From Ptychodera flava (lineage: Eukaryota; Hemichordata; Enteropneusta; Ptychoderidae): a stretch of 64,000 nt of DNA. The stretch spans positions 20,095,599-20,159,598 of the forward strand of contig NC_091933.1 in NCBI RefSeq assembly GCF_041260155.1. The letters are read 5' to 3'. Of the stretch, positions 4,896 through 51,579 are shown piece by piece; position 1 is the first letter of the stretch, and each line of letters starts with the position of its first letter. Position numbers and translations under genes: made by a program. The notes beneath the pieces were generated by a model. It was not told the origin of the DNA, did not search any database, and worked only from the letters and a program-made list of their open reading frames with translations.

Positions 4896-5461
4896 GTAAT
4901 TTCAACTGCATCAACAACATTTGTTCCTGGTCAAACAACTCAGCAAGAGAAAACAAGTACAGCAGTGGAACAGACTACAATGCAAGCAACTTCACAACAG
5001 TCAACAGGAGCTCCCATCGTTGGAGGCGATGTGTCTGTAGGAACAGCAGCCAAAACAACTGCTAGAGAATCCCCTATACCATCAACAGCACAGGTTTCTA
5101 GCGAGCCTACAGATGCTGCAACTACTGCAGCAGCACCAGTGCAGGTCACTATAAAGCAGACTACTCAGGCCACAAGAGCATCTACTGCTGCAGCAAGCAT
5201 CAGCCAGCCATCAACTGCGGCGAAGGAGACGCAACAACCGACAACCAGACAACAGACTACAGCTGAAAGGGAAACCAGCAGCCACGCTGTCTCAACTAAG
5301 CCTGTGGTGCTGGTGACGTCAGGTGAAACAACTGCCAAGGAGGAGAAAAGACTACATCTGTAGCCAAACAAACCACTCTGCTGAGAAACGTATCATCCGT
5401 GGCTGTGACTACTGTGAAAGTAACAACGGAAACACCAGAAACAACTGCTGTTCCTGAAAAG
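4896..5461 (+). CDS. Mucin-like repeat exon, copy 1 (frame-disturbed)
   Basis: First visible copy of the 567-bp exon, here 566 bp. The family exon starts with codon GTA or ATA straight after AG and ends with a complete AAG codon before GTAAGT or GTTAGT, so it is phase 0-0 and can be repeated without breaking the frame. It encodes 189 residues rich in Thr, Ser, Ala, Gln and Pro, with no Cys, Trp or Tyr, and two N-glycosylation sequons (residues about 153 and 165). This fits an extended O-glycosylated stalk. This copy lacks one G in the GGAGGAGG run near 5340, which shifts the frame after about residue 149. The product family is not recognised beyond mucin-like. The short minus-strand Val/Ala-rich ORFs over each copy are shadows. 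Confidence 0.65.
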
Positions 5462-5517
5462 GTAAGTGTTTGTGCACTATTTGCAATTACTGTAATGTGG
5501 ACTTCCAAAGCATTGTG

Positions 5518-5574
5518 TAGATTTATAACACATAATGGCAGATTGTTTATACACACAGCAGTCTAACAATTAAC
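5518..5574 (+). other. Intron flank after exon copy 1
   Basis: Start of unit A2: sequence shared with position 1 and position 11005. No gene. Confidence 0.7.
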
Positions 5575-6450
5575 ACAATTAGTTTATAGCTCCCATTTGC
5601 AATACATATATGACAATTGGGAGTTTATGTGGTTGGAAAAAGTCTGTATGTGAGTTGTCTGTCTGTATGTATGTATATGGGTCTGTCTGTCTGTCCAATG
5701 CAAAAACTCACAAACCGCTGCACGTGTTAAGCTGATTTTTGGTGTAGTGATGCCGTATATGGTCTTGATGTGCCGTTGTTAAAAATGAACTTGTTAGTCT
5801 CATGGATATGCAAATGAGATAGAAAAAGGGCGAAAATGGTCAAAAATCAATAACTGAGGAATTAATGTGATCATTGTCGTATTTGGTTTTTAGGTACCTT
5901 TGGCCAACTCATTTGAACATATAGATTTTATGTCAATATTTGATGCTTTCTATTTTTAATGAATTTATTCCTTTTTTGCCATTTTAGTAAAAAATCTTTT
6001 CTCTAAAGCAATGGTCGGATCATGCAGGTGCCTTGTGATAACTCAAAATAGAATTCATCGAAATTATGGCAAACTTTGCATATTTGTACTTTTGGGCAAT
6101 TTTTGCCATTTTTGGTCAAAAAAAACTTCTTTGAAACTGTGTGTGGTATTACTTTCTAATTGGGTGTGCAGGTTCTTAGGAGTGACCGGAAGATGACTCG
6201 GTGAACTAAAGGCTAGATTTGCAAATTTGTTGTACTTTTTGCCATGCTTTCAAATTTGGTACACAGGTGAAATGTAGTAGGTCATTCATTTAAAGTACAA
6301 GTACTGCCAGTGTGAATGAGCAGATTATGATTGTGCTGTTCCAGGCTGAGGTGTTATTTATAGGAATGATGCAATGTTAGACGGTAATTGATATTCAACT
6401 GAATTTGACTTACATTGTATGTAACTCTTGTACTGTATAAAACCTATCAA
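5575..6450 (+). mobile_element. Type I repeat module, unit A2
   Basis: The palindrome at 5590-5623 is more decayed than in unit A1. The microsatellite is shrunk to a few CTGT/GTAT repeats (about 5657-5695). The tail 6330-6450 is the left inverted-repeat arm. Confidence 0.6.
6330..6450 (+). repeat. Inverted repeat, left arm (unit A2)
   Basis: Pairs with the reverse complement of 7755-7874. Confidence 0.85.
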
Positions 6451-6850
6451 TTCACCCAGAAAAAATAATTCATATAATTTTAATAATTAAATTAATAAGG
6501 AAATCAACAAAGCCAAAATAATTTTAGTGTAGAATTATGAGAAAGTTCAACATTTTTGGGAGTTCATCGTGATATGTTTACCGTATTGGATGATTAAAAC
6601 ATATAAAGTCAACTTTCCTGAATCCCAACTTTGACATATTCTGCTTGGTTAATAGGCTGAAAGTACTGATAAAGACAACCAGCTGAAGATTCTTTAGAAC
6701 CTGACAGATATGCTGTTTTTTATGACATAATCTTGATAAGAAAGGCATGTTTACTTCAATTAGAATGTAATTAACTCTTGTATTATTATAAGCAGTAGTA
6801 TCAAATTGAACAAGCTGATATTGATAGGTTGGGCGGCTGTTGAAGGTTAA
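6451..6850 (+). repeat. Linker, unit A2
   Basis: Same shortened linker as 938-1340. No gene. Confidence 0.65.
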
Positions 6851-7750
6851 AAGCTGTAAAAATATATCTATGTATCTATGCATGTCTATCTGTCTGTCTG
6901 TCTGTCTATGTGTCTGTCTGTCTGTCTGTCTGTCTGTGTGTGTCTGTCTCTCTGTCTGTATGTGTATGTATGTATGTATGTATGTATGTATGTATGTATG
7001 TATGTATGTATGTATGTATGTTAGTATGTGCGGATGTATGTCCGTCCACATAAAAAATTCCTAAACTGCAGGACCTACCATCTTTGTATTTGTTGGACAG
7101 GTACCCGCAGGGGTGGAGATGTAAGATTTTGTTCAAATGAATATGCCAAAGTCAAAAGTATGCAAATGTAGGCAAAACAAGGACAAATCCTGCAAATTGC
7201 TAAAACTCTGTAACTACTGACCACATTTGGTTGAAATTTGGTAAGCATGCTCTTTATAGTGACCTCCGTTACATTTCTTCAAACTGTGGTGAAATGTTGA
7301 AAGTTGTATTTTTCGGGCGATTTCCCCTTTTTTGGTTAAAAATCTTTTTTTCTGAAAGTGCTCATCCCATTGCCTTGAAAACTTGTATGTATGATCCGAG
7401 GGTTTGCCTTTGTCAGATTCGTTCAAATTGTGGTGAAATTTTCATATTTGTATTTTTGTGGCAAGTTTTCCCGCTTTTTGTCAACAAATCGTTTTCTCCA
7501 AAAGTATTTGTTGGATTACTGTAAAACATGATGGTCTTGATCCTAGGGTGGTTTTCTGTCAGATATGTAAAAGTCATTATAAGATGGAGCATTTCATATT
7601 CCTAGGATATAAGATTAATTTGGACTTATAATGGAATTTTCTCAGTAATCAACCCGTTAAAATACAATGTCATGTGTGTACTAGTACTGAGTATTTCTGT
7701 AAAATGGGAGCGCAGTGACATTGACACTATTTTTATATTACACTGACCCT
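6851..7750 (+). mobile_element. Type II repeat module with microsatellite, unit A2
   Basis: Microsatellite at about 6868-7024 with interspersed GTGTGTCT, then the core with two 142-bp repeats. In this copy the second half of the core has changes (for example CATATTCCTAGGATATAAG) not seen in A1 or A3, perhaps a conversion tract from another copy. Confidence 0.65.
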
Positions 7751-7754
7751 TTAT

Positions 7755-7874
7755 TTGATAGGTTTTATACAGTACAGAGTTACATACAATGTAAGTCAAA
7801 TTCAGTTTAATATCAATTACCGTCTACCATTGCATCATTCCTATAAATAACACCTCAGCCTGGAATAGCACAAT
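7755..7874 (-). repeat. Inverted repeat, right arm (unit A2), with exon-less acceptor flank
   Basis: 120 bp, one A shorter than the A1 arm. It is joined at TTGA to the usual pre-exon flank, as at 2271. Confidence 0.85.
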
Positions 7875-8651
7875 TTTGGGGAAACTACTATGTGGTAATG
7901 AAGAATGGGAAATGGGCAATGAAATGAGCAGACAGCGGGTGATTTTAGATTAAATGTTACATCTTCACTGCAAATAAAACCATAAGTGTGTCATAAATAA
8001 TACAAACAAAACAAAATCATGTTTATTTGTTTGTTGTATGTGAGCCACGTCTAAGACACACAACAAAAGTACTGTTTCAGTCTCAGCTAAATGTCACCTC
8101 AGGTGCCACCAGAGAACACCATTTCCACTCCAAAATTTAATTTTTCGCCTTGCGAGAGGGGGGACACCCCCCTCTCGCGCCTCGCGCTCCCCCCCCTCGT
8201 TCGCTACGCTCACTCGCCGCTCAGCCGCTTCGCTTCCTCGCAGTCCACCCATCTACTTCTTAAATTACCTGGCTACTTTCAATGTAAGGACAACACTGAC
8301 AAGTAAATGCCATAAAATGCCATAAATGTACATGATTTTACAAATATGTTTTTGTAAAGTTAATCAAAAATGTACATGTATTTACATATCTTTATTTAGT
8401 TTCTTGAATATAGTCTGTGTGCGATAGAACAGCATCTTGTTACTGGGTGTGAAAACCAAGCAAACAACATTGCACCGAAATTTGGTAAAAAAAAAATATA
8501 TTTCGAAGAAGGAAAGTGAAAAAAAAAGTTGCAAGCATATGCCCTGTAGAAAAAAAATAATTCATGGTGAAGCACGTGGGAAAAAAATAATGGCTCTCCA
8601 CCAATCTTCCAAGCCCCCCCCCCCCCCCAGGATATCAAATGGTCCACCCCT
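7875..8651. mobile_element. TE-derived segment with GC hairpin and poly-C tract, unit A2
   Basis: Same segment as 2392-3164. The CpG-rich part has a small local repeat (CTCTCGCGCCTCGCGCTC) and the C-run near 8615 is slightly longer, both typical of slippage. Confidence 0.6.
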
Positions 8652-9117
8652 AAGGCTGGGCTATAAGATTCCTCATGTTCTATTTAAAGAAATTATGGAA
8701 TCTGTGTAAACAGTGCAATGAAAGAGTTACATGATTCCTTGTAATGCTTTTGATGACCTTGAACTTTTAACGTTGCAAACATTTGTCTCTTCAGTGTGCT
8801 TTCTCTGAGTACGTACAGTCTCAACTTATTCAACAGAACTTACTTGCAATGTTAATTTGAGAGTTAAATGTGCTTGGTTAATAGGCTGAATAGTACTGAT
8901 AAAGATAACAGCTGAAGATTCTTTATAACCTGACAGATATGCTGGGTTTTTTTTGACATAATCTTGATAATGAAGGCATTTTTACTTTAATTAGAATGTA
9001 ATTAACTCTTATTAATATTATTATAAGCAGTAGCATCAAGTTCAACAAGCTGGTATTGATAGGTTGGGCGGCTGTTGGAGGTTAAAAGCTGTAACAATAA
9101 ATGTATGTATGCATGCA

Positions 9118-9152
<35 letters not shown>

Positions 9153-9463
9153 ATGTATGTATGTATGTATGTATGTATGTATGCATGCATGCATGTATGC
9201 TGCATGTTTTTATGTATGTATGTTTGTATGTTAGTATATGCGGATGTATGACCGTCCATATAAAGAACTCCTAAACCGCAGGACCTGCCATCTTAGTATT
9301 TGTCTGACAGGTGCACCCAGGGATGGAGATTGTGAGATTTTGTTCAAATGAATATGCCAAGGTTAAAAATATGAAAATGTTTGGAAAAAAGGAAAAGTCC
9401 TGCAAATTGCTAAAACTCTGTAACCACTGACCACATTTGGTTGAAATTTGGTAAGCATGTTGG
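8652..9463 (+). repeat. Linker and truncated type II module, unit A2
   Basis: Same structure as 3165-3978, with the deletion junction at about 9461-9466 (core stops at GGTAAGCATG, exon flank resumes). Microsatellite at about 9115-9235. Confidence 0.7.
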
Positions 9464-10374
9464 TAACACAATTCGTTTTGAGCGCCCACAATTCATAGGT
9501 TATATGGTTGAATAAAGTCTGTATGTGAGTTGTCTATCTGTATGTATGTATATAGGGATGTCCGTCCGTCTATGTATGTATGTATGTATGTATGTATGCA
9601 TGCATGCATGCATGCATGGATATATTTATGTATGTATGTTTGTATGTTAGTATGTGCGGATGTATGTACACATTAAAAACTCCTTAACCGCAGGACCTAC
9701 CATCTTAGTATTTGTTGGACAGGTGCACCCAGGGGTGTAGATGTGAGATTTATTTCAAATGAATATGCCAAGGTTAAAAATATGAAAATGTTTGGAAAAA
9801 AGGAAAAGTCCTGCAAATTGCTAAAACTCTGTAACCACTGACCACATTTGGTTGAAATTTGGTAAGCATGTTCTTTATAGTGACTTTCGTTACATTTCTT
9901 CAAAGTGTGGTGAAATATTGAAAGTTGTATTTTTGGGGTGATTTTCCCGTTTTTGGTCAAACATCGTATTTTCTAAAAGCGCTCATCCCATTGCTTTGAA
10001 AACCTGTATATATGATCCAAGGGTTTGCCTTTGTCAGATTCGTTCAAATTGTGGTGAAATTTTCGTATTTGTATTTTTGTGGCAAGTTTTCCCACTTTTT
10101 GTCAAAAAATCGTTATCTCCCAAAGTATTTGTTGGATTGCTTTAAAACATGATGGTCTTGATCCTAGGGTTGTTTTCTGTCGGATATTGTAAAGTCATTA
10201 TAAGATGGAGCATTTCATATTGCTGGGGTATAAGATTAATTTGGACTTATGATGGAATTTTCTTAGTAATCAACCTGCTAAAATGCAATGTCATGTGTGT
10301 TCTAGTACTGAGTATTTCTGTAAAATGGGAGCGCAGTGACATTGACACTATTTTTATATTACACTGACCCTTTA
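9464..10374 (+). mobile_element. Chimeric I/II module preceding exon copy 2
   Basis: As 3979-4888. The microsatellite at about 9536-9655 includes a (GCAT)n palindromic run. Confidence 0.7.
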
Positions 10375-10381
10375 TTTGAAG

Positions 10382-10948
10382 GTAATTTCAACTGGATCAA
10401 CAACATTTGTTCCTGGTCAAACAACTCAGCAAGAGAAAACAAGTACAGCAGTGGAACAGACTACAATGCAAGCAACTTCACAACAGTCAACAGGAGCTCC
10501 CATCGTTGGAGGCGATGTGTCTGTAGGAACAGCAGCCAAAACAACTGCTAGAGAATCCCCTATACCATCAACAGCACAGGTTTCTAGCGAGCCTACAGAT
10601 GCTGCAACTACTGCAGCAGCGCCAGTGCAGGTCACTATAAAGCAGACTACTCAGGCCACAAGAGCATCTACTGCTGCAGCAAGCATCAGCCAGCCATCAA
10701 CTGCGGCGAAGGAGACGCAACAACCGACAACCAGACAACAGACTACAGCTGAAAGGGAAACCAGCAGCCACGCTGTCTCAACTAAGCCTGTGGTGCTGGT
10801 GACGTCAGGTGAAACAACTGCCAAGGAGGAGGAAAAGAATACATCTGTAGCCAAACAAACCACTCTGCTGAGAAACGTATCATCCGTGGCTGTGACTACT
10901 GTGAAAGTAACAACGGAAACACCAGAAACAACTGCTGTTCCTGGAAAA
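10382..10948 (+). CDS. Mucin-like repeat exon, copy 2 (intact)
   Basis: Fully open 567-bp copy, 189 codons, phase 0-0. The exon begins GTA ATT TCA after TTGAAG and ends ...CCT GGA AAA before GTAAGT, so the donor-side codons differ from the usual GAA AAG, with no change in length. It encodes Gly-Ser near the start (GSTTFV), unlike copies 1 and 3 (ASTTFV), and keeps the NTS and NVS sequons. It is the best reference sequence for the A-type exon. Confidence 0.78.
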
Positions 10949-11004
10949 GTAAGTGTTTGTGCACTATTTGCAATTACTGTAGTGTGGACTTCCAAAGCAT
11001 TGTG

Positions 11005-11061
11005 TAGATTTAAAACACATAATGGCAGATTGTTCATACACACAGCAGTCTGACAATTAAC
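11005..11061 (+). other. Intron flank after exon copy 2
   Basis: Start of unit A3. No gene. Confidence 0.7.
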
Positions 11062-11935
11062 ACAATTAGTTTTTAGCTCCCATTTACCATACATATATCG
11101 CAATTGTGAAGTTATATGGTTGAATAAAGTCTGTATGTGAGTTGTCTGTCTGTATGTCTCTATATGGGGATGTCTGCCCGTCCAACGCAAAAACTCACGA
11201 CCCGCTGCACGTATTAAGCTGATCTTTGGTGTAGTATTGCCATATATGGTCTTGATGTGCTAATGTCAAAATGAACTTGTTAGTCTCATGTATATGCAAA
11301 TGAGATAGAAAAAAGGGCGAAAATGGTCAAAAATCAATAACTTAGGAATTAATGTGATCATTGTCGTATTTGGTTTTTAGGTACCTTTGGCCAACTCATT
11401 TGAACATATAGATTTTATGTCAATATTTGATGCTTTCTATTTTTAATGAATTTATTCCTTTTTTGCCATTTTAGTAAAAAATCTTTTCTCTAAAGCAATG
11501 GTCGGATCATGCAGGTGCCTTGTGATAACTCAAAATAGAATTCATCGAAATTATGGCAAACTTTGCATATTTGTACTTTTGGGCAATTTTTGCCATTTTT
11601 GGTCAAAAAATCTTCTTTGACACTGTGTGTGGTATTACTTTCTAATTGGGTGTGCAGGTTCGTAGGAGTGACCTGAAGATGACTTGGTGAACTAAAGGCA
11701 AAATTTGCTAATTCGGAGTACTTTTTGCCATGCTTTCAAATTTGGTGCACAGGTGAAATGTAGTAGGTCATTCATTTAAAGTCAAGTATTGCCAGTGTGA
11801 ATGAGCAGATTATGATTGTTCTGTTCCAGGCTTAGGTGTTATTTATAGGTATGATGCAATGTTAGACGGTAATTGATATTTAACTGAATTTGACTTACAT
11901 TGTATGTAACTCTTGTTCTGTATAAAACCTATCAA
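11062..11935 (+). mobile_element. Type I repeat module, unit A3
   Basis: The palindrome (11077-11110) has lost its right arm identity (AATTGTGAAG instead of AATTGGGAGG). The microsatellite is almost gone (about 11140-11165). The core is otherwise as in unit A2. Confidence 0.6.
11815..11935 (+). repeat. Inverted repeat, left arm (unit A3)
   Basis: Pairs with the reverse complement of 13224-13344. Confidence 0.85.
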
Positions 11936-12345
11936 TTCACCAGGAAAAAAATAATTCATATAATTTTAAATAATTAAATTAATAAGGAAATCAACAAAGC
12001 CAAAATAATTTTAGTGTAGAATTATGAGAAAGTTCAACATTTTTCTGATTTTTGGGAGTTCATCGTGATATGTTTACCGTATTGGATGATTAAAACATAT
12101 AAAGTCAACTTTCCTGAATCCCAACTTTGACATATTCTGCTTGGTTAATAGGCTGAAAGTACTGATAAAGACAACCAGCTGAAGATTCTTTAGAACCTGA
12201 CAGATATGCTGTTTTTTATGACATGATCTTGATAAGAAAGGCATGTTTACTTCAATTAGAATGTAATTAACTCTTGTATTATTATAAGCAGTAGTATCAA
12301 ATTGAACAAGCTGATATTGATAGGTTGGGCGGCTGTTGAAGGTTA
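11936..12345 (+). repeat. Linker, unit A3
   Basis: Same shortened linker as 938-1340, with a small extra TTTCTGAT stretch near 12040. No gene. Confidence 0.65.
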
Positions 12346-13219
12346 AAAGCTGTAAAAATATATCTATGTATCTATGCATGTCTATCTGTCTGTCTGTCTG
12401 TCTATGTGTCTGTCTGTCTGTCTGTCTGTCTGTGTGTGTCTGTCTCTCTGTCTGTATGTGTATGTATGTATGTATGTATGTATGTATGTATGTATGTATG
12501 TATGTATGTATGTATGTATGTTAGTATGTGCGGATGTATGTCCGTCCACATAAAAAATTCCTAAACTGCAGGACCTACCATCTTAGTATTTGTTGGACAG
12601 GTACCCGCAGGGGTGGAGATGTAAGATTTTGTTCAAATGAATATGCCAAAGTCAAAAATATGCAAATGTAGGGAAAACAAGGACAAATCCTGCAAATTTA
12701 GATGAAATTTGGTAAGCATGCTCTTTATAGTGACCTTCGTTACATTTCTTCAAACTGTGGTGAAATGTTGAAAGTTGTATTTTTCGGGCGATTTCCCCTT
12801 TTTTGTTAAAAATCTATTTTCTGAAAGCGCTCATCCCATTGCCTTGAAAACTTGTATATATGATCCGAGGGTTTGCCTTTGTCAGATTCGTTCAAATTGT
12901 GGTGAAATTTTCATATTTGTATTTTTGTGGCAAGTTTTCCCACTTTTTGTCAAACAATCGTTATCTCCCAAAGTATTTGTTGGATTGCTTTAAAACATGA
13001 TGGTCTTGATCCTAGGGTGGTTTTCTGTCGGATATTTTAAAGTCATTATAAGATGGAGCATTTCATATTGCTGGGGTATAAGATTAATTTGGACTTATGA
13101 TGGAATTTTCTTAGTAATCAACCTGCTAAAATGCAATGTCATGTGTGTTCTAGTACTGAGTATTTCTGTAAAATGGGAGCGCAGTGACATTGACACTATT
13201 TTTATATTACACTGACCCT
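12346..13219 (+). mobile_element. Type II repeat module with microsatellite, unit A3
   Basis: Microsatellite at about 12374-12520. About 40 bp of the core before the first 142-bp repeat is missing near 12700. The end carries the hairpin and CTGAC but no exon. Confidence 0.65.
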
Positions 13220-13223
13220 TTAT

Positions 13224-13344
13224 TTGATAGGTTTTATACAGTACAAGAGTTACATACAATGTAAGTCAAATTCAGTTTAATATCAATTACCGTCTACCAT
13301 TGCATCATTCCTATAAATAACACCTCAGCCTGGAATAGCACAAT
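13224..13344 (-). repeat. Inverted repeat, right arm (unit A3), with exon-less acceptor flank
   Basis: 121 bp, joined at TTGA to the pre-exon flank. Confidence 0.85.
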
Positions 13345-14114
13345 TTTGGGGAAACTACTATGTGGTAATGAAGAATGGGAAATGGGCAATGAAATGAGCA
13401 GACAGCGGGTGATTTTAGATTAAATGTTACATCTTCACTGCAAACCATAAGTGTGTCATAAATAATACAAACAAAACAAAATCATGTTTGTTTGTTTTGT
13501 TGTATGTGAGCCACGTCTAAGACACACAACAAAAGTACTGTTTCAGTCTCAGCTAAATGTCACCTCAGATGCCACCAGAGAACACCATTTCCACTCCAAA
13601 ATTTAATTTTTCGCCTTGCGAGAGGGGGGACACCCCCCTCTCGCGCTCTCCCCCCCCCTCGTTCGCTACGCTCACTCGCCGCTCGGTCGCTTCGCTTCCT
13701 CGCAGTCCACCCATCTACTTCTTAAATTACCTGGCTACTTTCAATGTAAGGACAACACTGACAAGTAAATGCCATAAAATGCCATAAATGTACATGATTT
13801 TACAAATATGTTTTTGTAAAGTTAATCAAAAATGTACATGTATTTACATATCTTTATTTAGTTTCTTGAATATAGTCTGTGTGCGATAGAACAGCATCTT
13901 GTTACTGGGTGTGAAAAACCAAGCAAACAAACATTGCACCGAAATTTGGTAAAAAAAAAAATATATTCGAAGAAGGAAAGTGAAAAAAAAAGTTGCAAGC
14001 ATATGCCCTGTAGAAAAAAAATAATTCATGGTGAAGCACGTGGGAAAAAAATAATGGCTCTCCACCAATCTTCCAAGCCCCCCCCCCCCCCAGGATATCA
14101 AATGGTCCACCCCT
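13345..14114. mobile_element. TE-derived segment with GC hairpin and poly-C tract, unit A3
   Basis: Same as 2392-3164, with the right end again at GGTCCACCCCT next to AAGGCTGGGC. Confidence 0.6.
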
Positions 14115-14580: not shown

Positions 14581-14619
<39 letters not shown>

Positions 14620-15835: not shown

Positions 15836-15842
15836 TTTGAAG

Positions 15843-16408
15843 GTAATTTCAACTGCATCAACAACATTTGTTCCTGGTCAAACAACTCAGCAAGAGAAAA
15901 CAAGTACAGCAGTGGAACAGACTACAATGCAAGCAACTTCACAACAGTCAACAGGAGCTCCCATCGTTGGAGGCGATGTGTCTGTAGGAACAGCAGCCAA
16001 AACAACTGCTAGAGAATCCCCTATACCATCAACAGCACAGGTTTCTAGCGAGCCTACAGATGCTGCAACTACTGCAGCAGCACCTGTGCAGGTCACTATA
16101 AAGCAGACTACTCAGGCCACAAGAGCATCTACTGCTGCAGCAAGCATCAGCCAGCCATCAACTGCGGCGAAGGAGACGCAACAACCGACAACTAGACAAC
16201 AGACTACAGCTGAAAGGGAGACTAGCAGCCACGCTGTCTCAACTAAGCCTGTGGTGCTGGTGACGTCAGGTGAAACAACTGCCAAGGAGGAGGAAAGAAT
16301 ACATCTGTAGCCAAACAAACCACTCTGCTGAGAAACGTATCATCCGTGGCTGTGACTACTGTGAAAGTAACAACGGAAACACCAGAAACAACTGCTGTTC
16401 CTCAAAAG
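15843..16408 (+). CDS. Mucin-like repeat exon, copy 3 (A/B mosaic, frame-disturbed)
   Basis: 566 bp. The start (GTA ATT TCA ACT GCA) and the body follow the A type, but the end (CCT CAA AAG then GTTAGT) is the B type, so the exon is a recombinant or represents the ancestor of B. One A is missing from the GGAAAAG run near 16292, shifting the frame after about residue 150. Confidence 0.65.
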
Positions 16409-16464
16409 GTTAGTGTTTGTGCACTATTTGCAATTACTGTAATGTGGACTTCCAAAGCATTGTG

Positions 16465-26063: not shown

Positions 26064-26630
26064 ATAATTTCAACTGGATCAACAACATTTGTTCCTGGCC
26101 AAACAACTCAGCAAGAGAAAACAAGTACAGCAGTGGAACAGACTACAATGCAAGCAACTTCACGACAGTCAACAGGAGCTCCCATCGTTGGAGGCGATGT
26201 GTCTGTAGGAACAGCAGCCAAAACAACTGCTAGAGAATCCCCTATACCATCAACAGCACAGGTTTCTAGCGAGCCTACAGATGCTGCAACTACTGCAGCA
26301 GCACCAGTGCAGGTCACTCTAAAGCAGACTACTCAGGCCACAAGAGCATCTACTGCTGCAGCAAGCATCAGCCAGCCATCAACTGCGGCGAAGGAGACGC
26401 AACAACCGACAACCAGACAACAGACTACAGCTGAAAGGGAAACCAGCAGCCACGCTGTCTCAACTAAGCCTGTGATGCTGGTGACGGCAGGTGAAACAAC
26501 TGCCAAGGAGGAGGAAAAGAATACATCTGTAGCCAAACAAACCACTCTGCTGAGAAACGTATCATCCATGGCTGTGACTACTCTAAAAGTAACAACGGAA
26601 ACACCAGAAACAACTGCTGTTCCTCAAAAG
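26064..26630 (+). CDS. Mucin-like repeat exon, copy 4 (B type, intact)
   Basis: Open 567-bp exon starting ATA ATT TCA and ending CCT CAA AAG before GTTAGT. B-type differences from copy 2 include Ile for Val at residue 1, Arg for Gln in RQSTG, Leu for Ile in VTLKQ, Met for Val in VMLVT and SSMAVTTLKV. It has the Ala variant GACGGCAGG (VTAGE), shared with copies 5, 8 and 13. Confidence 0.78.
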
Positions 26631-27651: not shown

Positions 27652-28218
27652 ATAATTTCAACTGGATCAACAACATTTGTTCCTGGCCAAACAACTCAGC
27701 AAGAGAAAACAAGTACAGCAGTGGAACAGACTACAATGCAAGCAACTTCACGACAGTCAACAGGAGCTCCCATCGTTGGAGGCGATGTGTCTGTAGGAAC
27801 AGCAGCCAAAACAACTGCTAGAGAATCCCCTATACCATCAACAGCACAGGTTTCTAGCGAGCCTACAGATGCTGCAACTACTGCAGCAGCACCAGTGCAG
27901 GTCACTCTAAAGCAGACTACTCAGGCCACAAGAGCATCTACTGCTGCAGCAAGCATCAGCCAGCCATCAACTGCGGCGAAGGAGACGCAACAACCGACAA
28001 CCAGACAACAGACTACAGCTGAAAGGGAAACCAGCAGCCACGCTGTCTCAACTAAGCCTGTGATGCTGGTGACGGCAGGTGAAACAACTGCCAAGGAGGA
28101 GGAAAAGAATACATCTGTAGCCAAACAAACCACTCTGCTGAGAAACGTATCATCCATGGCTGTGACTACTCTAAAAGTAACAACGGAAACACCAGAAACA
28201 ACTGCTGTTCCTCAAAAG
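27652..28218 (+). CDS. Mucin-like repeat exon, copy 5 (B type, intact)
   Basis: Open, 567 bp, and by inspection identical in protein to copy 4, including the VTAGE variant. Confidence 0.78.
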
Positions 28219-29240: not shown

Positions 29241-29806
29241 ATAATTTCAACTGGATCAACAACATTTGTTCCTGGCCAAACAACTCAGCAAGAAAAAACA
29301 AGTACAGCAGTGGAACAGACTACAATGCAAGCAACTTCACGACAGTCAACAGGAGCTCCCATCGTTGGAGGCGATGTGTCTGTAGGAACAGCAGCCAAAA
29401 CAACTGCTAGAGAATCCCCTATACCATCAACAGCACAGGTTTCTAGCGAGCCTACAGATGCTGCAACTACTGCAGCAGCACCAGTGCAGGTCACTCTAAG
29501 CAGACTACTCAGGCCACAAGAGCATCTACTGCTGCAGCAAGCATCAGCCAGCCATCAACTGCGGCGAAGGAGACGCAACAACCGACAACCAGACAACAGA
29601 CTACAGCTGAAAGGGAAACCAGCAGCCACGCTGTCTCAACTAAGCCTGTGATGCTGGTGACGTCAGGTGAAACAACTGCCAAGGAGGAGGAAAAGAATAC
29701 ATCTGTAGCCAAACAAACCACTCTGCTGAGAAACGTATCATCCATGGCTGTGACTACTCTAAAAGTAACAACGGAAACACCAGAAACAACTGCTGTTCCT
29801 CAAAAG
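29241..29806 (+). CDS. Mucin-like repeat exon, copy 6 (B type, frame-disturbed)
   Basis: 566 bp. One A is missing in CACTCTAAAGCAG near 29498, shifting the frame after about residue 86. It carries the Ser variant (GACGTCAGG, VTSGE). Confidence 0.65.
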
Positions 29807-30864: not shown

Positions 30865-31429
30865 ATAATTTCAACTGGATCAACAACATTTGTTCCTGGC
30901 CAACAACTCAGCAAGAGAAAACAAGTACAGCAGTGGAACAGACTACAATGCAAGCAACTTCACGACAGTCAACAGGAGCTCCCATCGTTGGAGGCGATGT
31001 GTCTGTAGAACAGCAGCCAAAACAACTGCTAGAGAATCCCCTATACCATCAACAGCACAGGTTTCTAGCGAGCCTACAGATGCTGCAACTACTGCAGCAG
31101 CACCAGTGCAGGTCACTCTAAAGCAGACTACTCAGGCCACAAGAGCATCTACTGCTGCAGCAAGCATCAGCCAGCCATCAACTGCGGCGAAGGAGACGCA
31201 ACAACCGACAACCAGACAACAGACTACAGCTGAAAGGGAAACCAGCAGCCACGCTGTCTCAACTAAGCCTGTGATGCTGGTGACGTCAGGTGAAACAACT
31301 GCCAAGGAGGAGGAAAAGAATACATCTGTAGCCAAACAAACCACTCTGCTGAGAAACGTATCATCCATGGCTGTGACTACTCTAAAAGTAACAACGGAAA
31401 CACCAGAAACAACTGCTGTTCCTCAAAAG
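30865..31429 (+). CDS. Mucin-like repeat exon, copy 7 (B type, frame-disturbed)
   Basis: 565 bp. One A is missing at about 30900 (GGCCAACAAC) and one G at about 31008 (GTAGAACAG), so about 36 codons are read out of frame and the frame is not restored. VTSGE variant. Confidence 0.6.
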
Positions 31430-32449: not shown

Positions 32450-33016
32450 ATAATTTCAACTGGATCAACAACATTTGTTCCTGGCCAAACAACTCAGCAA
32501 GAGAAAACAAGTACAGCAGTGGAACAGACTACAATGCAAGCAACTTCACGACAGTCAACAGGAGCTCCCATCGTTGGAGGCGATGTGTCTGTAGGAACAG
32601 CAGCCAAAACAACTGCTAGAGAATCCCCTATACCATCAACAGCACAGGTTTCTAGCGAGCCTACAGATGCTGCAACTACTGCAGCAGCACCAGTGCAGGT
32701 CACTCTAAAGCAGACTACTCAGGCCACAAGAGCATCTACTGCTGCAGCAAGCATCAGCCAGCCATCAACTGCGGCGAAGGAGACGCAACAACCGACAACC
32801 AGACAACAGACTACAGCTGAAAGGGAAACCAGCAGCCACGCTGTCTCAACTAAGCCTGTGATGCTGGTGACGGCAGGTGAAACAACTGCCAAGGAGGAGG
32901 AAAAGAATACATCTGTAGCCAAACAAACCACTCTGCTGAGAAACGTATCATCCATGGCTGTGACTACTCTAAAAGTAACAACGGAAACACCAGAAACAAC
33001 TGCTGTTCCTCAAAAG
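32450..33016 (+). CDS. Mucin-like repeat exon, copy 8 (B type, intact)
   Basis: Open, 567 bp, with the VTAGE variant and a protein like copies 4 and 5. Confidence 0.78.
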
Positions 33017-34035: not shown

Positions 34036-34601
34036 ATAATTTCAACTGGATCAACAACATTTGTTCCTGGCCAAACAACTCAGCAAGAGAAAACAAGTAC
34101 AGCAGTGGAACAGACTACAATGCAAGCAACTTCACGACAGTCAACAGGAGCTCCCATCGTTGGAGGCGATGTGTCTGTAGGAACAGCAGCCAAAACAACT
34201 GCTAGAGAATCCCCTATACCATCAACAGCACAGGTTTCTAGCGAGCCTACAGATGCTGCAACTACTGCAGCAGCACCAGTGCAGGTCACTCTAAAGCAGA
34301 CTACTCAGGCCACAAGAGCATCTACTGCTGCAGCAAGCATCAGCCAGCCATCAACTGCGGCGAAGGAGACGCAACAACCGACAACCAGACAACAGACTAC
34401 AGCTGAAAGGGAAACCAGCAGCCACGCTGTCTCAACTAAGCCTGTGATGCTGGTGACGTCAGGTGAAACAACTGCCAAGGAGGAGGAAAAGAATACATCT
34501 GTAGCCAAACAAACCACTCTGCTGAGAAACGTATCATCCATGGCTGTGACTACTCTAAAAGTAACAACGGAAACACCAGAAACAACTGCTGTTCCTCAAA
34601 G
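34036..34601 (+). CDS. Mucin-like repeat exon, copy 9 (B type, one base short at donor)
   Basis: 566 bp. The only change in length is a missing A in the last codon (CTCAAAGGTTAGT), so the whole 189-residue segment is open but the exon would leave the frame at its 3' junction. VTSGE variant. Confidence 0.68.
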
Positions 34602-35620: not shown

Positions 35621-36187
35621 ATAATTTCAACTGGATCAACAACATTTGTTCCTGGCCAAACAACTCAGCAAAAGAAAATCAGTAGAGCAGTGGAACACAC
35701 TACAATGCAAGCAACTTCACGACAGTCAACAGGAGCTCCCATCGTTGGAGGCGATGTGTCTGTAGGAACAGCAGCCAAAACAACTGCTACAGAATTCCCT
35801 ATACCATCAACAGCACAGGTTTCTAGCGAGCCTACAGATGCTGCAACTACTGCAGCAGCACCAGTGCAGGTCACTCTAAAGCAGACTACTCAGGCCACAA
35901 GAGCATCTACTGCTGCAGCAAGCATCAGCCAGCCATCAACTGCGGCGAAGGAGACGCAACGACAGACAACCAGACAACAGACTACAGCTGAAAGGGAAAC
36001 CAGCAGCCACGCTGTCTCAACTAAGCCTGTGATGCTGGTGACGTCAGGTGAAACAACTGCCAAGGAGGAGGAAAAGAATACATCTGTAGCCAAACAAACC
36101 ACTCTGCTGAGAAACGTATCATCCATGGCTGTGACTACTCTAAAAGTAACAACGGAAACACCAGAAACAACTGCTGTTCCTCAAAAG
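35621..36187 (+). CDS. Mucin-like repeat exon, copy 10 (B type, intact, diverged)
   Basis: Open, 567 bp. It is the most diverged B copy: QQKKISRAVEH replaces QQEKTSTAVEQ, TATEFPIP replaces TARESPIP, and ETQRQTTR replaces ETQQPTTR. All substitutions fall in the first two thirds, and several are G/C transversions. VTSGE variant. Confidence 0.78.
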
Positions 36188-37211: not shown

Positions 37212-37776
37212 ATAATTTCAACTGGATCAACAACATTTGTTCCTGGCCAAACAACTCAGCAAGAGAAAACAAGTACAGCAGTGGAACAGACTACAATGCA
37301 AGCAACTTCACGACAGTCAACAGGAGCTCCCATCGTTGGAGGCGATGTGTCTGTAGGAACAGCAGCCAAACAACTGCTAGAGAATCCCCTATACCATCAA
37401 CAGCACAGGTTTCTAGCGAGCCTACAGATGCTGCAACTACTGCAGCAGCACCAGTGCAGGTCACTCTAAAGCAGACTACTCAGGCCACAAGAGCATCTAC
37501 TGCTGCAGCAAGCATCAGCCAGCCATCAACTGCGGCGAAGGAGACGCAACAACCGACAACCAGACAACAGACTACAGCTGAAAGGGAAACCAGCAGCCAC
37601 GCTGTCTCAACTAAGCCTGTGATGCTGGTGACGTCAGGTGAAACAACTGCCAAGGAGGAGGAAAAGAATACATCTGTAGCCAAACAAACCACTCTGCTGA
37701 GAAACGTATCATCCATGGCTGTGACTACTCTAAAAGTAACAACGGAAACACCAGAACAACTGCTGTTCCTCAAAAG
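37212..37776 (+). CDS. Mucin-like repeat exon, copy 11 (B type, frame-disturbed)
   Basis: 565 bp. One A is missing in GCCAAACAAC (about 37369) and another in CCAGAACAAC (about 37755). VTSGE variant. Confidence 0.6.
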
Positions 37777-38794: not shown

Positions 38795-39360
38795 ATAATT
38801 TCAACTGGATCAACAACATTTGTTCCTGGCCAAACAACTCAGCAAGAGAAAACAAGTACAGCAGTGGAACAGACTACAATGCAAGCAACTTCACGACAGT
38901 CAACAGGAGCTCCCATCGTTGGAGGCGATGTGTCTGTAGGAACAGCAGCCAAACAACTGCTAGAGAATCCCCTATACCATCAACAGCACAGGTTTCTAGC
39001 GAGCCTACAGATGCTGCAACTACTGCAGCAGCACCAGTGCAGGTCACTCTAAAGCAGACTACTCAGGCCACAAGAGCATCTACTGCTGCAGCAAGCATCA
39101 GCCAGCCATCAACTGCGGCGAAGAGAGACGCAACAACCGACAACCAGACAACAGACTACAGCTGAAAGGGAAACCAGCAGCCACGCTGTCTCAACTAAGC
39201 CTGTGATGCTGGTGACGTCAGGTGAAACAACTGCCAAGGAGGAGGAAAAGAATACATCTGTAGCCAAACAACCACTCTGCTGAGAAACGTATCATCCATG
39301 GCTGTGACTACTCTAAAAGTAACAACGGAAACACCAGAAACAACTGCTGTTCCTCAAAAG
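38795..39360 (+). CDS. Mucin-like repeat exon, copy 12 (B type, frame-disturbed)
   Basis: 566 bp with three small indels: an A missing near 38953, one base gained in GCGAAGAGAGACG near 39123, and an A missing near 39268. The branch site is CTAAC rather than CTGAC. This is the most disturbed copy. Confidence 0.58.
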
Positions 39361-40378: not shown

Positions 40379-40944
40379 ATAATTTCAACTGGATCAACAA
40401 CATTTGTTCCTGGCCAAACAACTCAGCAAGAGAAACAAGTACAGCAGTGGAACAGACTACAATGCAAGCAACTTCACGACAGTCAACAGGAGCTCCCATC
40501 GTTGGAGGCGATGTGTCTGTAGGAACAGCAGCCAAAACAACTGCTAGAGAATCCCCTATACCATCAACAGCACAGGTTTCTAGCGAGCCTACAGATGCTG
40601 CAACTACTGCAGCAGCACCAGTGCAGGTCACTCTAAAGCAGACTACTCAGGCCACAAGAGCATCTACTGCTGCAGCAAGCATCAGCCAGCCATCAACTGC
40701 GGCGAAGGAGACGCAACAACCGACAACCAGACAACAGACTACAGCTGAAAGGGAAACCAGCAGCCACGCTGTCTCAACTAAGCCTGTGATGCTGGTGACG
40801 GCAGGTGAAACAACTGCCAAGGAGGAGGAAAAGAATACATCTGTAGCCAAACAAACCACTCTGCTGAGAAACGTATCATCCATGGCTGTGACTACTCTAA
40901 AAGTAACAACGGAAACACCAGAAACAACTGCTGTTCCTCAAAAG
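40379..40944 (+). CDS. Mucin-like repeat exon, copy 13 (B type, frame-disturbed)
   Basis: 566 bp. One A is missing in GAGAAAACAAG near 40434, close to the start, while the remaining 170 or so codons are open. VTAGE variant. The downstream flank (ACACACTCAGTC) is shared only with copy 4. Confidence 0.62.
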
Positions 40945-45190: not shown

Positions 45191-45284
45191 TGAAAATAAA
45201 TGTATGTATGTATGTATGTATGCATGCCTATCTGTCTGTGTGTCTGTGTGTCTGTCTGTCTGTTTATCTGTCTGTCTGTCTGTA

Positions 45285-45315
<31 letters not shown>

Positions 45316-45860
45316 ATGTATGTATGTATGTATGTATGTATGTATGTATGTATGTATGTATGTATGTATGTATGTATGTATGTATGTATGTATGTATGTA
45401 TGTATGTATGTATGTATGTATGTATGTATGTATGTATGTATGTATGTATGTATGTATGTATGTATGTATGTAGGTATGTATGCATGCTTGTATGTATGTA
45501 TGTATGTATGTATGTATGTATGTATGTATGTATGTATGTATGTATGTATGTATGTATGTATGTATGTATGTATGTATGTATGTATAATTGTATGTATGCA
45601 TGTATAAGTGTATGTATGCATGTATAAGTGTATGTATGTATGTATGTATATAGTGTATGTAGTATGTATGTATGTATAATTGTATGTATGCATGTATAAT
45701 TGTATGTATGCATGTATAAGTGTATGTATGCATGTATAAGTGTATGTATGTATGTATGTATGTATGTATGTATGTATGTATCTATGTATCTATGTATCTA
45801 TGTATCTATGTATGTATCTATGTATCTATGTATCTATATATCTATGTATGTGTGTTAGTA
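45191..45860. repeat. Long compound microsatellite (about 650 bp)
   Basis: (GTAT)n with CTGT, GCAT, AAGT, AATT and CTAT variants. It is the longest tract in the window. All the 90-197 codon ORFs in it (Tyr-Val-Cys-Met or His-Thr-Tyr-Ile repeats) are products of the tetranucleotide, which has no stop in several frames. Confidence 0.95.
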
Positions 45861-46173
45861 TGTGCGGATGTATGTCCGTCCACATTAAAAACTCCTAAAC
45901 TGCAGACCTACCATGTTAGTATTTGTTGGACAGGTGCACCTAGGGGTGGAGATGTGACATTTTGTTCGAATGAATATGCCATAGTCAAAAATATGCAAAT
46001 ATGAGGAAAAAACCGAAAAATCCCGCAAATTGCTAAAACTCTGTAACCACTGACCAGATTTGGTTGAAATTAGGTAAGCAGGTTTTTTTTATAATGACTT
46101 TCGTTACATTTCTTCAAACTGTGGTGAAATGTTGAAAGTTGTATTTTGGGGCGATTTACCCGTTTTTGGTCAA
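45861..46173 (+). mobile_element. Type II core, left part, interrupted by LINE
   Basis: Core sequence up to CGTTTTTGGTCAA, continuing after the LINE at 50587 with TCAAAAAATCGTATTTTC. Confidence 0.75.
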
Positions 46174-46598: not shown

Positions 46599-49556
46599 CT
46601 AGTCGTGGTTTAAAATCCAAGATTTAAGAGTTTGTTTAAACTGGTGTCTATTGTTTATATTTTTTATAGTAGCTGGTAAACTGTTCCAAAATTTGGCTCC
46701 GTGGTAACTAAATGAAAACTGGCCTAGACGCAGTGTTCTTTTTGGTACAATTAAGTGGATACTGGCTACAGATCTGGTATAATACTGGTGACTGATGTAG
46801 GAAAAGTAGTCTGAGAAATTGTGGGGGAGTCTGCCATACAAAAGATCATGAATAAAAATTCCTGTCTGGAAACAAAATTGTTCATAAATGTTCAACATAT
46901 TTAATTCTCTGAAAAGGGGTGCACTTGAGGCTTGCGGGGGATTGAACGTGATGATTCTAACAAGTTTTTTTAATAGCTTGTGAACAGGAAGAAGTGTGGA
47001 AGGGTAAGTACTACCCCAAACCTCGAGACAGTAAGAAATATGAGGTAAGATAAGGGAGTTGTACAAGCGAATAAGAATATGTTTTGGGACAAAATACCTG
47101 AGTTTAGAAAAGAGACCAATTTTAGGACTAATCTGGTTGCAAACTTTCTTAATGTGTGATTTCCAGGAAAGATGGTGGTCTATAGAACTCCAAGGTAACA
47201 TACATAATCTTCCTCTCTGATCTCACATGAGTGAATGTCAATAAAACCAGCTTTACTAAAGTGACGTTGATGGGGAGCAATGAGAACATAGTTTGTTTTA
47301 TCCTGATTAACTGTAAGTTTGTTGGCTTCACACCATTCTACAACATGTGAGAACTCATCATTTGCTTCAGTCATATCTACTATATTGTCTGGGAAAGCAT
47401 GAAAAAAGTTAGAGTCGTCAGCAAAAAGTTTTGATGAAAAGTAATGAGAGCAATCAGGTAAGTCGTTGATGTAAATAAGAAAAAGAATGGGACCTAGGAT
47501 TGAACCTTGAGGTACTCCATGTGTTATGGATTTGAGTGTTGAAGTATAATTTCCTGTACAAACATATTGTTTCCTTGAGGTCAGATAGCTTTTCAAACCA
47601 CTTCAGAGGGATACCTCTAACTCCATAACATGGCAATTTGTCTAATAAAATACTATGGTCGATGGTATCAAAGGCTTTAGTCAAATCAAGACAGATCCCC
47701 AGGAGAACATTTCCCTCATCAACATTGTGTAAAACTTCGTCAATAAGATTAATAAGAGCCAATTTTGTACTATAGGTTTTTCTGAAGCCATACTGTTGAG
47801 GGTAGATCAGAGAATGTTTATCAAGAAAAGCAACAAGCTGTTTACAAATTATGCGTTCAAAAATTTTACTTAGTTGGGGTAGGATGGAAATTGGGCGGTA
47901 GTTACTGAGGTAGTAGGGGGAGCCTTTTTTGAATATTGGAGTGATCTTAGCAATTTTAAGGGGATCAGGAAAAACACCATGTTGAAAAGATAAATTAATG
48001 ATATGACACAATGGTTTGGCAATAATGTGAGCCCCATCAAGTAGCAAGCGAGCTGGGATATTATCATGACCAGTTGATTTAGATGGATTAAGTGATAATA
48101 ATTCTTTAACAACATCTTGCTCTACAACAGGGTGAAGAAAAATATTTGTTGGCTGAGAGAGAGTAATGTACTTCTTGTGACTAATTCCTGAGTCTATGTT
48201 ATCTGCTAGTGTTTTACCAATGTTACAAAAGAAGTCGTTAAAATTCTCAACGATGGAAGATGGTTCTGTAACAGTATTTATGGCTGTACTACTATTATCA
48301 ATAATTATTTTGTTGGGAAGTTTAGTGTTTGTTTTCTCTGTTTTACCCAAGATATCATTAATCACTTTCCATGTCTTGGCAGAATCTGTCTGGCATTCAC
48401 TGAATTTATTACTGTAGTAAAGTTTCTTTGATTTCCTAAGGAGGGTGGTCAAAATGTTCCTGTAAGAGTTAAATTTTGCCCTGACTGCTAAATTGAAATT
48501 ACTTTTGACAAGTTTATGGTATAGCTTATATTTTGCCCTGATGGACTTTTTTAAACCTTGGGTGATCCAGGGCTTATCTTTGTTGTTCTTTTTATGTGAT
48601 GGGGTAACAAATGGAGCATGTTTAGAACAAACACTTTCAAGAATACTGGAAAAATTGTGGTAAGAATCGTTGACATCATTGTTGAGTAACACAGAATCCC
48701 AATTTGTACAAGCTAAGTCATTTTGAAAGGAGGCTACATTGTAATTTAAATAACTCCTGACTTTGATTGTGTTCTCTCTAGTGAAAGCACAATGGAGATT
48801 GCTGAATGTTGCAAAAATTGGTAGGTGATCGGATATATCAGCTGAAATTGTGCCAGAATTAATGAAATAGTTGCTGAAATTACAATAAATATGGTCTATT
48901 AAGGTTCTAGAGTGATCGGAAATACGTGTTGGAACAGTAATCAACTGTGTAAAATTACTGGCTGCAAGTGTATTGATAAAATTACATGTCTGGAGATTCT
49001 GTGAGTCAAGGTAATCTATGTTGAAGTCACCAACAAGAATACATTGGTATTTAGTTGACTTAACTTTGTGAAGGGCTTGTTCAATGCCTTCAGTAAACAG
49101 ATCAATCGATGTCCCAGGTTTTCTGTAAACTATTCCGATGAGTAAGGTTTCCTGGCCAGTATGAAGTTTGATCCAGAGAGTTTCACTATGCGCTACAGTT
49201 ATGTCTTCAATGATCTCAAAGTTAATGGAAGTGTTAATGTATGCTCCAACGCCACCTCCTTGTTGACCCGACTGTCTTTGATGTAGAATTAGTTGATAGC
49301 CTGGAATACTGTGCAATGAAGGGTTTCCTACTTGCCAAACTTCAGACATTGCGATGACATGGAGTGGTACGTGTTCAATACTATCCTTAAGTAGCATAAG
49401 GTCTTCAATGTGCTTGCTGAGAGAGCGAATATTGATATGTAGTAAGTTGAATGAGGCACGGGAAGAGTTCTTACAATGAAATTCATTCAGTTCATCGACT
49501 GTCAGTGTATTACAAGTGGACTTACAAACTCTGTCGTCGGATGGTGAAGGATCCAT
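46599..49556 (-). CDS. LINE ORF2: endonuclease and reverse transcriptase (two frameshifts)
   Basis: Starts with ATG at 49556. The N-terminal 250 residues form an exonuclease-endonuclease-phosphatase nuclease: INIRSL (41-46), SEVW (71-74), GDFN (176-179) and ISDHLP (241-246). The reverse transcriptase follows with [43 protein letters not shown] and the catalytic FADD. The C-terminal part ends ...KFWNSLP...SWILNHD, common in CR1/L2-group LINEs. An extra A near 47590 (AAAAGCTATCTG) and one missing base near 47186 break the frame; reading otherwise continues to the stop at 46599. It would act in target-primed reverse transcription. Confidence 0.85.
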
Positions 49557-49596
49557 AAGTTATGCAGGACTTTTAATGTTGTAAAATACTGACTCA

Positions 49597-50488
49597 CTAT
49601 TGTATGCGTTGAACATCTTCGATGGACTTGATGCACACATGTCTCAGACCTTTGTCTTTTCTGACGAAGATATTCCCGTTCTGTGTCCATACATATTTCC
49701 ATCCAATTTCCTTGAGTTTCTTCCTACTTTCGTAGAAGAGTTGTTTGTTCTTGGCAGTTAACTGTTCATTGATATAGATTTGGTTATGTTCACCTTTTTC
49801 ACCAACGATATCTATGTCTCTGCTACTTTTGTTTCTAAGTTGTTTTTTGGCTTCGTACAGTTTGTTTCGAAGATTTCTCCTCGTAAAGCGGACGATTATT
49901 GGGGGTGGGTGTGCTTGTTGCTTATTTGGTAAACGATGGCTCACATCGATATCCGTTTTTTCGATGGTTACTCCCGCTGCTGCGGCGACCTTGGCGACTA
50001 TTTGGTCAGTATCTTCGTCCCTCCTTACAGGTATCCCGTGTATTTCAAGATTATTACGACGCGTATATTGTTGAAGGTCATGAATTTCTCTTTCGGCTGT
50101 TGTTAATTTCTGCTGCGTCACAGACAATTGTTCTTTCAGTTCTTTGTTCTCCTTGTTAATCTTGTCGACTTCTTTCCTGTTTTTCCTCGAAATATGAGTT
50201 CATATATTGCACCGATGTTTGTAGTACATCTAACTTGCCTTCTATATTAGCTAGGTGTTCCACTTTTACCGTAAGGTTGATTAGAGTTGTCTGGATACTG
50301 GCAAGTTGAGCTGTGAATTCCGTCGTGTTGCCTGTGTCAATGTTGGCGGCCATGTTGGTTTCAGGCTGCGTTCCTTCACGACGAGGGAAACGTTTCTGCT
50401 CACATATTCTACACAGGTCCAAGTCGCCTTGACACAAACGTACCTTTCTAGTAGTTCCACAGTCATTACACTTGAGGTTGTTTGGCAT
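49597..50488 (-). CDS. LINE ORF1: nucleic-acid-binding protein (one frameshift)
   Basis: The likely start is the ATG at 50488 (MPNNLKCNDC); upstream codons in the same frame belong to the leader. The N terminus has CxxC...C...CxxC (CNDC, CQGDLDLCRIC), which is zinc-finger-like. A predicted coiled coil follows (EGKLDVLQ... into KINKENKELKEQL), then an RRM-like part with RRNNLEIHGIP. One A is missing in the run at about 50180-50184, which separates the first 110 or so codons from the rest. It ends about 40 bp before ORF2. In related LINEs ORF1 binds the element's RNA. Confidence 0.75.
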
Positions 50489-50586
50489 AGTGGTGAGAAA
50501 TTTTCCAGATTTACCAGTGCAAAACGCACTTTTTTGGGAGCTGATGTACCACGGAACGACCGTACGTGAAGCGCCCTCTCTATCTC

Positions 50587-51004
50587 TCAAAAAATCGTAT
50601 TTTCTAAAAACGCTCATCCTATTGCCTTGAAAACTTGTATGTATGATCCGAGGGTTTGCCTTTGTCAGATTCGTTCAAATTGTGGTGAAATTTTCATATT
50701 TATTTTTTGGGGCAATTTTTCCCACTTTTTTGTCAAAAAATCGTTTTCTCTAAAAGTATTTGTTGGATTGCTTTAAAACATCATGGTCTTGATCCTAGGG
50801 TTGTTTTCTGTCAGATATGTAAAAGTCATTATAAGATGGAGCATTTCATATTGCTTGGGGATAAGATTAATTTGGACTTACAATGGAATTTTCTTATTAA
50901 TCAACCTGTAAGAATGCAATTTCATGTGGGTACTAGTACTGAGTATTTCTGTAAAATGGGAGCACAGTGTCATTGACACTATTTTTATACTACACTGACC
51001 CTTT
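50587..51004 (+). mobile_element. Type II core, right part, before exon copy 14
   Basis: Completes the interrupted core: second 142-bp motif, hairpin AGTGTCATTGACACT (about 50965-50979) and CTGAC. Several private substitutions (TAAGAATGCAATTTCATG) mark it as the most diverged pre-exon module. Confidence 0.75.
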
Positions 51005-51012
51005 ATTTGAAG

Positions 51013-51579
51013 GTAATTTCAACTGGATCAACAACATTTGTTCCTGGCCAAACAACTCAGCAAGAGAAAACAAGTACAGCAGTGGACCTGACTACAATGC
51101 ATGCAACTTCACAACAGTCAACGGGAGCTCCCTTCGTTGGAGGCGATGTGTCTGTAGGAACAGCAGACAAAACAACTGCTAGAGAATCCCCTATACCATC
51201 AACAGCACAGGTTTCTAGCGAGCCTACAGATGCTGCAACTACTGCAGCAGCACCAGTGCAGGTCACTCTAAAGCAGACTACTCAGGCCACAAGAGCATCT
51301 ACTGCTGCAGCAAGCATCAGCCAGCCATCAACTGCGGCTAAGGAGACGCAACAACCGACAACCAGACAACAGACTACAGCTGAGAGGGAAACGAGCAGCC
51401 ACGCTGTCTCAACTAAGCCTGTGATGCTGGTGACGTCAGGTGAAACAACTGCCAAGGAGGAGGAAAAGACTACATCTGTAGCCAAACAAACCACTCTGGT
51501 GAGAAACGTATCATCCGTGGCTGTGACTACTGTGAAAGTAACAACGGAAACACCAGAAACAACTGCTGTTCCTGAAAAG
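51013..51579 (+). CDS. Mucin-like repeat exon, copy 14 (intact, last copy)
   Basis: Open 567-bp exon beginning GTA ATT TCA and ending CCT GAA AAG before GTAAAT. It mixes A-type (SSVAVTTVKV, VPEK) and B-type (VTLKQ, VMLVTSG) residues and has private changes (DLTTMHATS, APFVGG, VGTADKTT, EKTTSV). EKTTSV removes the NTS sequon, so only NVS remains. It is the copy nearest the unique 3' exons and could be close to the ancestral single exon. Confidence 0.8.

Follow-up and report, generated by a model that had tools for sequence, protein, structure and literature searches.

A tandem array of exon-plus-intron units with a mucin-like exon in the hemichordate Ptychodera flava

Described systems and the Ptychodera array

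We describe a tandem array of a mucin-like exon and its intron in a 64,000-nucleotide stretch of the genome of the hemichordate Ptychodera flava (assembly GCF_041260155.1, contig NC_091933.1, positions 20,095,599 to 20,159,598 of the forward strand); this whole stretch is the window, and all positions given below count from its first letter. A comparable arrangement is described for the SmPoMuc genes of Schistosoma mansoni, in which exon 2 and its flanking introns make up tandemly arranged units that measure about 1 kb and number up to about 20 in a gene, with intronic parts more than 94% alike, concerted evolution, microsatellites between the units and repeat numbers that differ between individuals (PMC2576457). 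The likeness consists in a mucin-type repeat that is an exon with its intron, arranged in tandem and homogenised. However, SmPoMuc exon 2 measures 27 bp against 567 bp here, and the resemblance is one of similar working, with no membership in a common family. SmPoMuc is furthermore a multigene family with observed transcripts, whereas the present case is one locus.

In the chicken gene Muc13, repeats rich in proline, threonine and serine (PTS) are reported from near-identical exons, one repeat per exon and at least 12 in number, and a change in length by recombination or splicing is suggested (PMC1552070). The Muc13 repeats have 20 residues, and the gene has SEA and transmembrane domains and is supported by an expressed sequence tag; here the repeat has 189 residues, and no such domain was found in the frames searched (specified below). 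Human MUC16 is described with mucin repeats spread over exons and introns, five exons making up each SEA-containing repeat of 156 residues (PMC3431878), in contrast to the single exon per repeat of the present array, for which the searched frames gave no SEA match. The frog mucin FIM-C.1 is said to be polymorphic via alternative splicing (PMC7177656).

Repeated exons with introns are named also for the fungal SOWgp gene and for spider silk (PMC2576457). In human LPA, the KIV-2 coding repeat is reported as exon plus intron in a 5.6-kb unit with 1 to more than 40 copies (PMC6314250), and in spider silk genes such as Nephila Flag the protein modules are described as arising from homogenised tandem units of exon and intron (PMC3522626). 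The silk genes differ from our array in their silk composition, as against a mucin-like one, and in introns that are reported to be more alike than the exons, whereas here the exons are as alike as the introns or more. The KIV-2 unit of LPA holds two exons and codes for a folded kringle, in contrast to one exon of mucin-like composition per unit here.

A preliminary description of this DNA had stated that mucin repeats are usually minisatellites inside one exon, which is generally the case; exon-coded mucin repeats have nevertheless been published (PMC2576457, PMC1552070), and the novelty implied for exon-plus-intron mucin repeats was already in print with SmPoMuc and Muc13. The array itself is real, and it is a larger-exon addition to the known exon-plus-intron coding repeats and no new kind of gene.

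A blastn search of the window with copy 1 (E up to 1e-3) places 14 exon copies within 4896-51579, all on the + strand and each with E=0.0, the other 13 being 96.5-99.1% identical to copy 1. The at least 14 tandem exon-plus-intron copies of the preliminary description are thereby recovered, and the array runs past the left edge of the window. A tblastn search with E up to 1 adds a single weak exon-like match (E=0.079), which lies inside a retrotransposon. The copies are:

4896..5461, + strand: exon copy 1, 566 nt, one 1-nt deletion, frame closed at codon 156
10382..10948, + strand: exon copy 2, 567 nt, open, of the 5.5-kb class
15843..16408, + strand: exon copy 3, 566 nt, one 1-nt deletion, mosaic, 3' end and donor of the 1.6-kb class
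26064..26630, + strand: exon copy 4, 567 nt, open, first of ten copies at about 1.6 kb spacing
27652..28218, + strand: exon copy 5, 567 nt, open
29241..29806, + strand: exon copy 6, 566 nt, one 1-nt deletion
30865..31429, + strand: exon copy 7, 565 nt, two 1-nt deletions
32450..33016, + strand: exon copy 8, 567 nt, open
34036..34601, + strand: exon copy 9, 566 nt, one 1-nt deletion adjoining the donor
35621..36187, + strand: exon copy 10, 567 nt, open, differing from copy 8 by 9 nonsynonymous changes and 1 synonymous change
37212..37776, + strand: exon copy 11, 565 nt, two 1-nt deletions
38795..39360, + strand: exon copy 12, 566 nt, two 1-nt deletions and one 1-nt insertion
40379..40944, + strand: exon copy 13, 566 nt, one 1-nt deletion
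51013..51579, + strand: exon copy 14, 567 nt, open, last copy, states of both classes mixed

What characterises the exon-plus-intron tandem kind, near-identical exon and intron with the splice sites kept, is found here: all 14 exons are bounded by AG on the upstream side and by GT on the downstream side. A branch-point-like CTGAC, CTGAA or CTAAC likewise stands about 15 nt upstream of every copy. The conservation of splice signals claimed earlier is true of these motifs but does not extend to the donor hexamer, which takes three forms (GTAAGT in copies 1-2, GTTAGT in copies 3-13, GTAAAT in copy 14). With up to three mismatches allowed, the window contains 15 instances of the 23-nt acceptor tail, as opposed to a mean of 0.00 in 100 shuffles, which argues that the signal of the array is not due to chance. 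Eleven of these tails precede exons and four (2254, 7738, 13207, 51709) are exon-less; copies 5, 8 and 12, with a tail one base shorter, are left out of this count.

Six copies (2, 4, 5, 8, 10 and 14) have 567 nt and are open in phase 0-0, and for these the single 189-codon exon of the preliminary description stands; the other eight depart from it. None of 2000 order-1 Markov sequences built from copy 2 is open over 567 nt in the given frame. The mucin-like character that had been assigned to the exon holds by composition: PTS-type repeats are described with at least 20-25% serine plus threonine and about 5% proline (PMC2515642), values that all six open copies reach. In these copies serine and threonine account for 63-66 and proline for 10-11 of the 189 residues, and cysteine is absent; an intact exon has two N-glycosylation sequons, copy 14 one. 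The largest value for serine plus threonine is 36-38 per 100 residues and would fail a stricter rule of 40% that exists for mucins.

Unit classes, mosaic copies and exon-less scars

The distances between exon starts separate the units into two classes of about 5.5 and about 1.6 kb, with spacings of 5486 and 5461 bp among copies 1-3 and of 1583-1624 bp among copies 4-13. Gaps of about 10 kb flank the block of copies 4-13, and the right-hand gap contains the retrotransposon. The nine complete units 4-12 have a mutual identity of 95.8-99.3% over about 1.6 kb, gaps counted. A tenth stretch, after copy 13, reaches 85-88% over 1600 bases because the intron after copy 13 departs.

The borders of the classes provide insight into exchange between copies. 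Sites are taken as diagnostic where copies 1-2 are distinguished from at least nine of copies 4-13, and there are 29 of them. Copy 3 agrees with the 5.5-kb class at the first 24, which reach through codon 174, and with the 1.6-kb class at three of the last five; in copy 14 both states are mixed. Such mosaics are expected from exchange between copies. Copy 10 has flanks that are 97-100% like those of copy 8, though its exon differs as listed above, and this exon is perhaps the product of conversion from a diverged copy. Complementarity joining the two introns, as in the exon-repetition proposal for SmPoMuc, was sought around copy 8 only, where none of eight pairs links both introns; one 12-nt stretch of the copy 8 exon matches both flanking introns inversely.

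Two further features lie on either side of the 14 copies:

1..4895, + strand: intron of a further left copy, starting 56 nt past its donor, with a scar at 2254-2276
51709..51731, + strand: exon-less scar, an exact copy of the acceptor tail about 130 nt past copy 14, with no exon after it

The opening 49 bases of the window correspond to positions 57-100 from the start of the intron, which indicates that another exon stands immediately to the left of the window and that the array continues leftward. When the window is compared with itself by blastn, 1-12139 matches 5518-17616 at 95.9%. In the scars at 2254-2276, 7738-7760 and 13207-13229 the 3' end of the intron is preserved up to 2 bp or less from where the exon would begin, and the exon is gone; a portion of this intron follows in inverted orientation (817-937 vs 2391-2271). 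The exon-less acceptor tails suggest loss or truncation of exons. Main intron pieces recur without an exon past the array, among the blastn matches listed at 54.6, 58.5 and 60.4 kb with 79-85% identity, and the piece at 60.4 kb ends in a truncated acceptor region (61369-61445).

A candidate gene model and its alternatives

We consider it probable that the array forms the repetitive part of a nuclear gene, that this gene encodes a long, serine/threonine-rich and probably O-glycosylated protein, and that an exon and its intron were tandemly multiplied in it. The symmetric 0-0 exon of 189 codons would have been multiplied together with its intron by tandem duplication, most likely via unequal crossing over between near-identical units, and later exchange and gene conversion would keep the units alike and could account for the two classes and for the mosaic copies at their borders. 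If 14 full-length copies were spliced in order, they would contribute 2646 residues, to be followed by unique C-terminal exons. The length of alleles could drift, as the frame would be preserved whenever a unit is added or lost. Both ends of such a gene would fall beyond the window, and to call the repeat an ectodomain is a guess. Three candidate exons lie downstream of copy 14:

52047..52148, + strand: candidate exon A, 34 codons, phase 0-0, GC-AG donor with a moderate donor score
53087..53333, + strand: candidate exon B, 82 codons and 1 nt, phase 0-1, strong donor, contains RKRR
58080..58124, + strand: candidate exon C, 45 nt, phase 1-1, weak

The phases of all three fit onward from copy 14, and the RKRR of exon B is presumably a furin-like motif. 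A match of exon B to DUF4681 (E=0.009, 16.7 bits against a cut-off of 27) was set aside together with three weaker ones, as was a sub-cut-off match of exon copy 2 to ddrB-ParB (E=0.037). The search of PDB with exon B returned seven sequences, all with E of 0.9 or worse. The Pfam search covered the + strand frames of 17617-25252 and 51580-60581, the three frames of the retrotransposon, exon copy 2 and candidate exons A and B. The three + strand frames of 17617-25252 and 51580-60581 gave no match above the cut-off, neither to SEA or VWD nor to any other family.

Several observations weigh against a coding array. As assembled, eight of the 14 copies (1, 3, 6, 7, 9, 11, 12 and 13, with 565-566 nt) are frameshifted by 12 one-base indels, 11 deletions and one insertion, by eye mostly in short runs of A, and joining all copies as assembled would break the frame. 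Since some one-base indels are common to several units, a part of them may be genuine. After correction for homopolymer length, the exons of the nine complete units have 9 indels where 14.1 are expected from the introns (P=0.11); without significant depletion, selection against frameshifts is not established. Above the Pfam cut-off there was no match for exon copy 2, for candidate exons A and B or for the + strand frames covering C.

The substitutions add to these points. Equal change at all codon positions had been named in the preliminary description as telling against its reading, and the 38 variable columns over the 14 copies come near to this with 10, 12 and 16 at positions 1, 2 and 3 (p=0.48), a number of columns that gives little power. 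The 25 nonsynonymous and 14 synonymous changes do not depart from the site ratio (p=0.20). The comparison of nonsynonymous and synonymous rates (dN/dS) across copies that had likewise been proposed leaves constraint on amino acids not established, and the six open copies give their highest ratio, 3.2, where copy 10 is compared with 4, 5 and 8, a value based on 9 vs 1 changes. The exon of copy 8 differs from that of copy 14 at 18 of 567 positions and the 400 bp of upstream intron at 16 of 398 (p=0.48), a similar degree of divergence in both. The shared indels and the ratios of copy 10 slightly lower our confidence in the coding reading.

The remaining ratios, taken like the former from pairwise dN and dS values without a formal test, are 0.5 for copy 2 vs 14, 0.8-0.9 for copy 2 vs 4, 5 and 8 and for these three vs 14, and 1.1-1.2 for copy 10 vs 14 and copy 2 vs 10; copies 4, 5 and 8 have no differences between them. 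Shared variable columns are distributed as 7/3/3 over the codon positions (p=0.29), singletons as 3/9/13 (p=0.048) and all columns without copy 10 as 9/6/14 (p=0.19). Homogenisation by exchange blunts any such test of selection.

The strongest alternative is a decayed or never-coding duplication, in which the exon of a real gene would have been amplified with its intron and most copies would be truly frameshifted and lie outside the mature message, in effect an intronic satellite. Besides the eight copies off frame, exon indels near the intron rate and equally variable codon positions, it is favoured by the donor GTTAGT of 11 of the 14 copies, which scores below the GTAAGT of copies 1-2. However, decay agrees less well with the AG and GT kept in every copy, and in two of three class comparisons the exon is less diverged than the upstream intron: 13/567 vs 28/398 for copy 2 vs 8 (p=5e-4) and 17/567 vs 42/400 for copy 2 vs 14 (p=2e-6). 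For synonymous sites alone against the upstream intron, p is 0.06 (2 vs 8), 0.03 (2 vs 14) and 0.81 (8 vs 14). These comparisons are three of the 15 pairs of open copies, one per class comparison and non-independent, and they leave out the pairs with copy 10, in which the exon is more changed, and the 100 bp downstream. The exon DNA appears somewhat protected in part of the comparisons, and selection on the amino acids is not established.

The distribution of indels likewise disagrees with decay. The nine complete units differ by 59 substitutions and 45 one-base indels, 38 of them deletions, which gives 4.1 substitutions and 3.1 indels per kb and copy, as opposed to 12.7 and 1.95 between the introns after copies 1 and 2, which are of the 5.5-kb class. 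One-base indels thus do not rise with divergence, which suggests a floor of consensus errors from long-read assembly. We tentatively take the frameshifts to be mainly such errors, and we regard decay of the array as unlikely. Real frameshifts could also coexist with a message kept open by leaving out the frameshifted copies, as intact copies are 0-0 and interchangeable and splicing or mRNA surveillance could favour those in frame; this we judge very unlikely.

Copy number and unit order might alternatively be in part a product of the assembly, with units collapsed, expanded or joined from two haplotypes. Identities of up to 99.3% and the common single-base indels would agree with this, but private variants that set units apart, a 37-bp insertion in one case, and the retrotransposon and other sequence between copies make several units probably distinct, and we hold this explanation to be improbable. 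A unit that belongs to a dispersed repeat or a transposable element and carries the open frame by chance, with no exon of a gene, would fit the intron pieces past the array but is highly improbable, as these pieces lack the exon, the exon has no Pfam match above the cut-off, and within the window blastn places it at the 14 sites only, with the one weak tblastn match in addition.

Neighbouring elements and significance

The right-hand gap of the array holds the following element:

46599..50674, - strand: LINE-type retrotransposon (long interspersed nuclear element), between copies 13 and 14, no part of the gene

Its endonuclease and reverse transcriptase domains in the second open reading frame (ORF2) and a Baculo_FP_2nd match in ORF1 are the only Pfam matches above the cut-off among the sequences searched. 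ORF2 is broken into three overlapping pieces in two frames, which could reflect error or decay.

The intron after copy 3 contains, at 18030-20180, a block with inverted ends (GGTAGTGACTCAGGTT ... AACCTGAGTCACTACC) that by eye resembles a DNA transposon. Long tetranucleotide (TGTA)n microsatellites occur in the large introns at 45200-45875 and 24379-24707 and are perhaps comparable to the microsatellites between SmPoMuc units. Past the array, a satellite-like repeat of 146 bp occupies 61784-63450; its arms are inverted, e.g., 61757-61955 vs 63287-63485, which are 94% complementary.

With its two unit classes, mosaic copies and exon-less scars, the array makes the birth and loss of exons readable at one locus. 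If frameshifted copies were left out of the message, damaged exons would be tolerated and one genome would make a range of protein lengths. If the gene is transcribed and polymorphic, it would be a clean case of a large-exon mucin that changes its length in steps of 189 residues by unequal exchange, and the short list of such genes (SmPoMuc, Muc13, LPA and spider silk) would gain one case.

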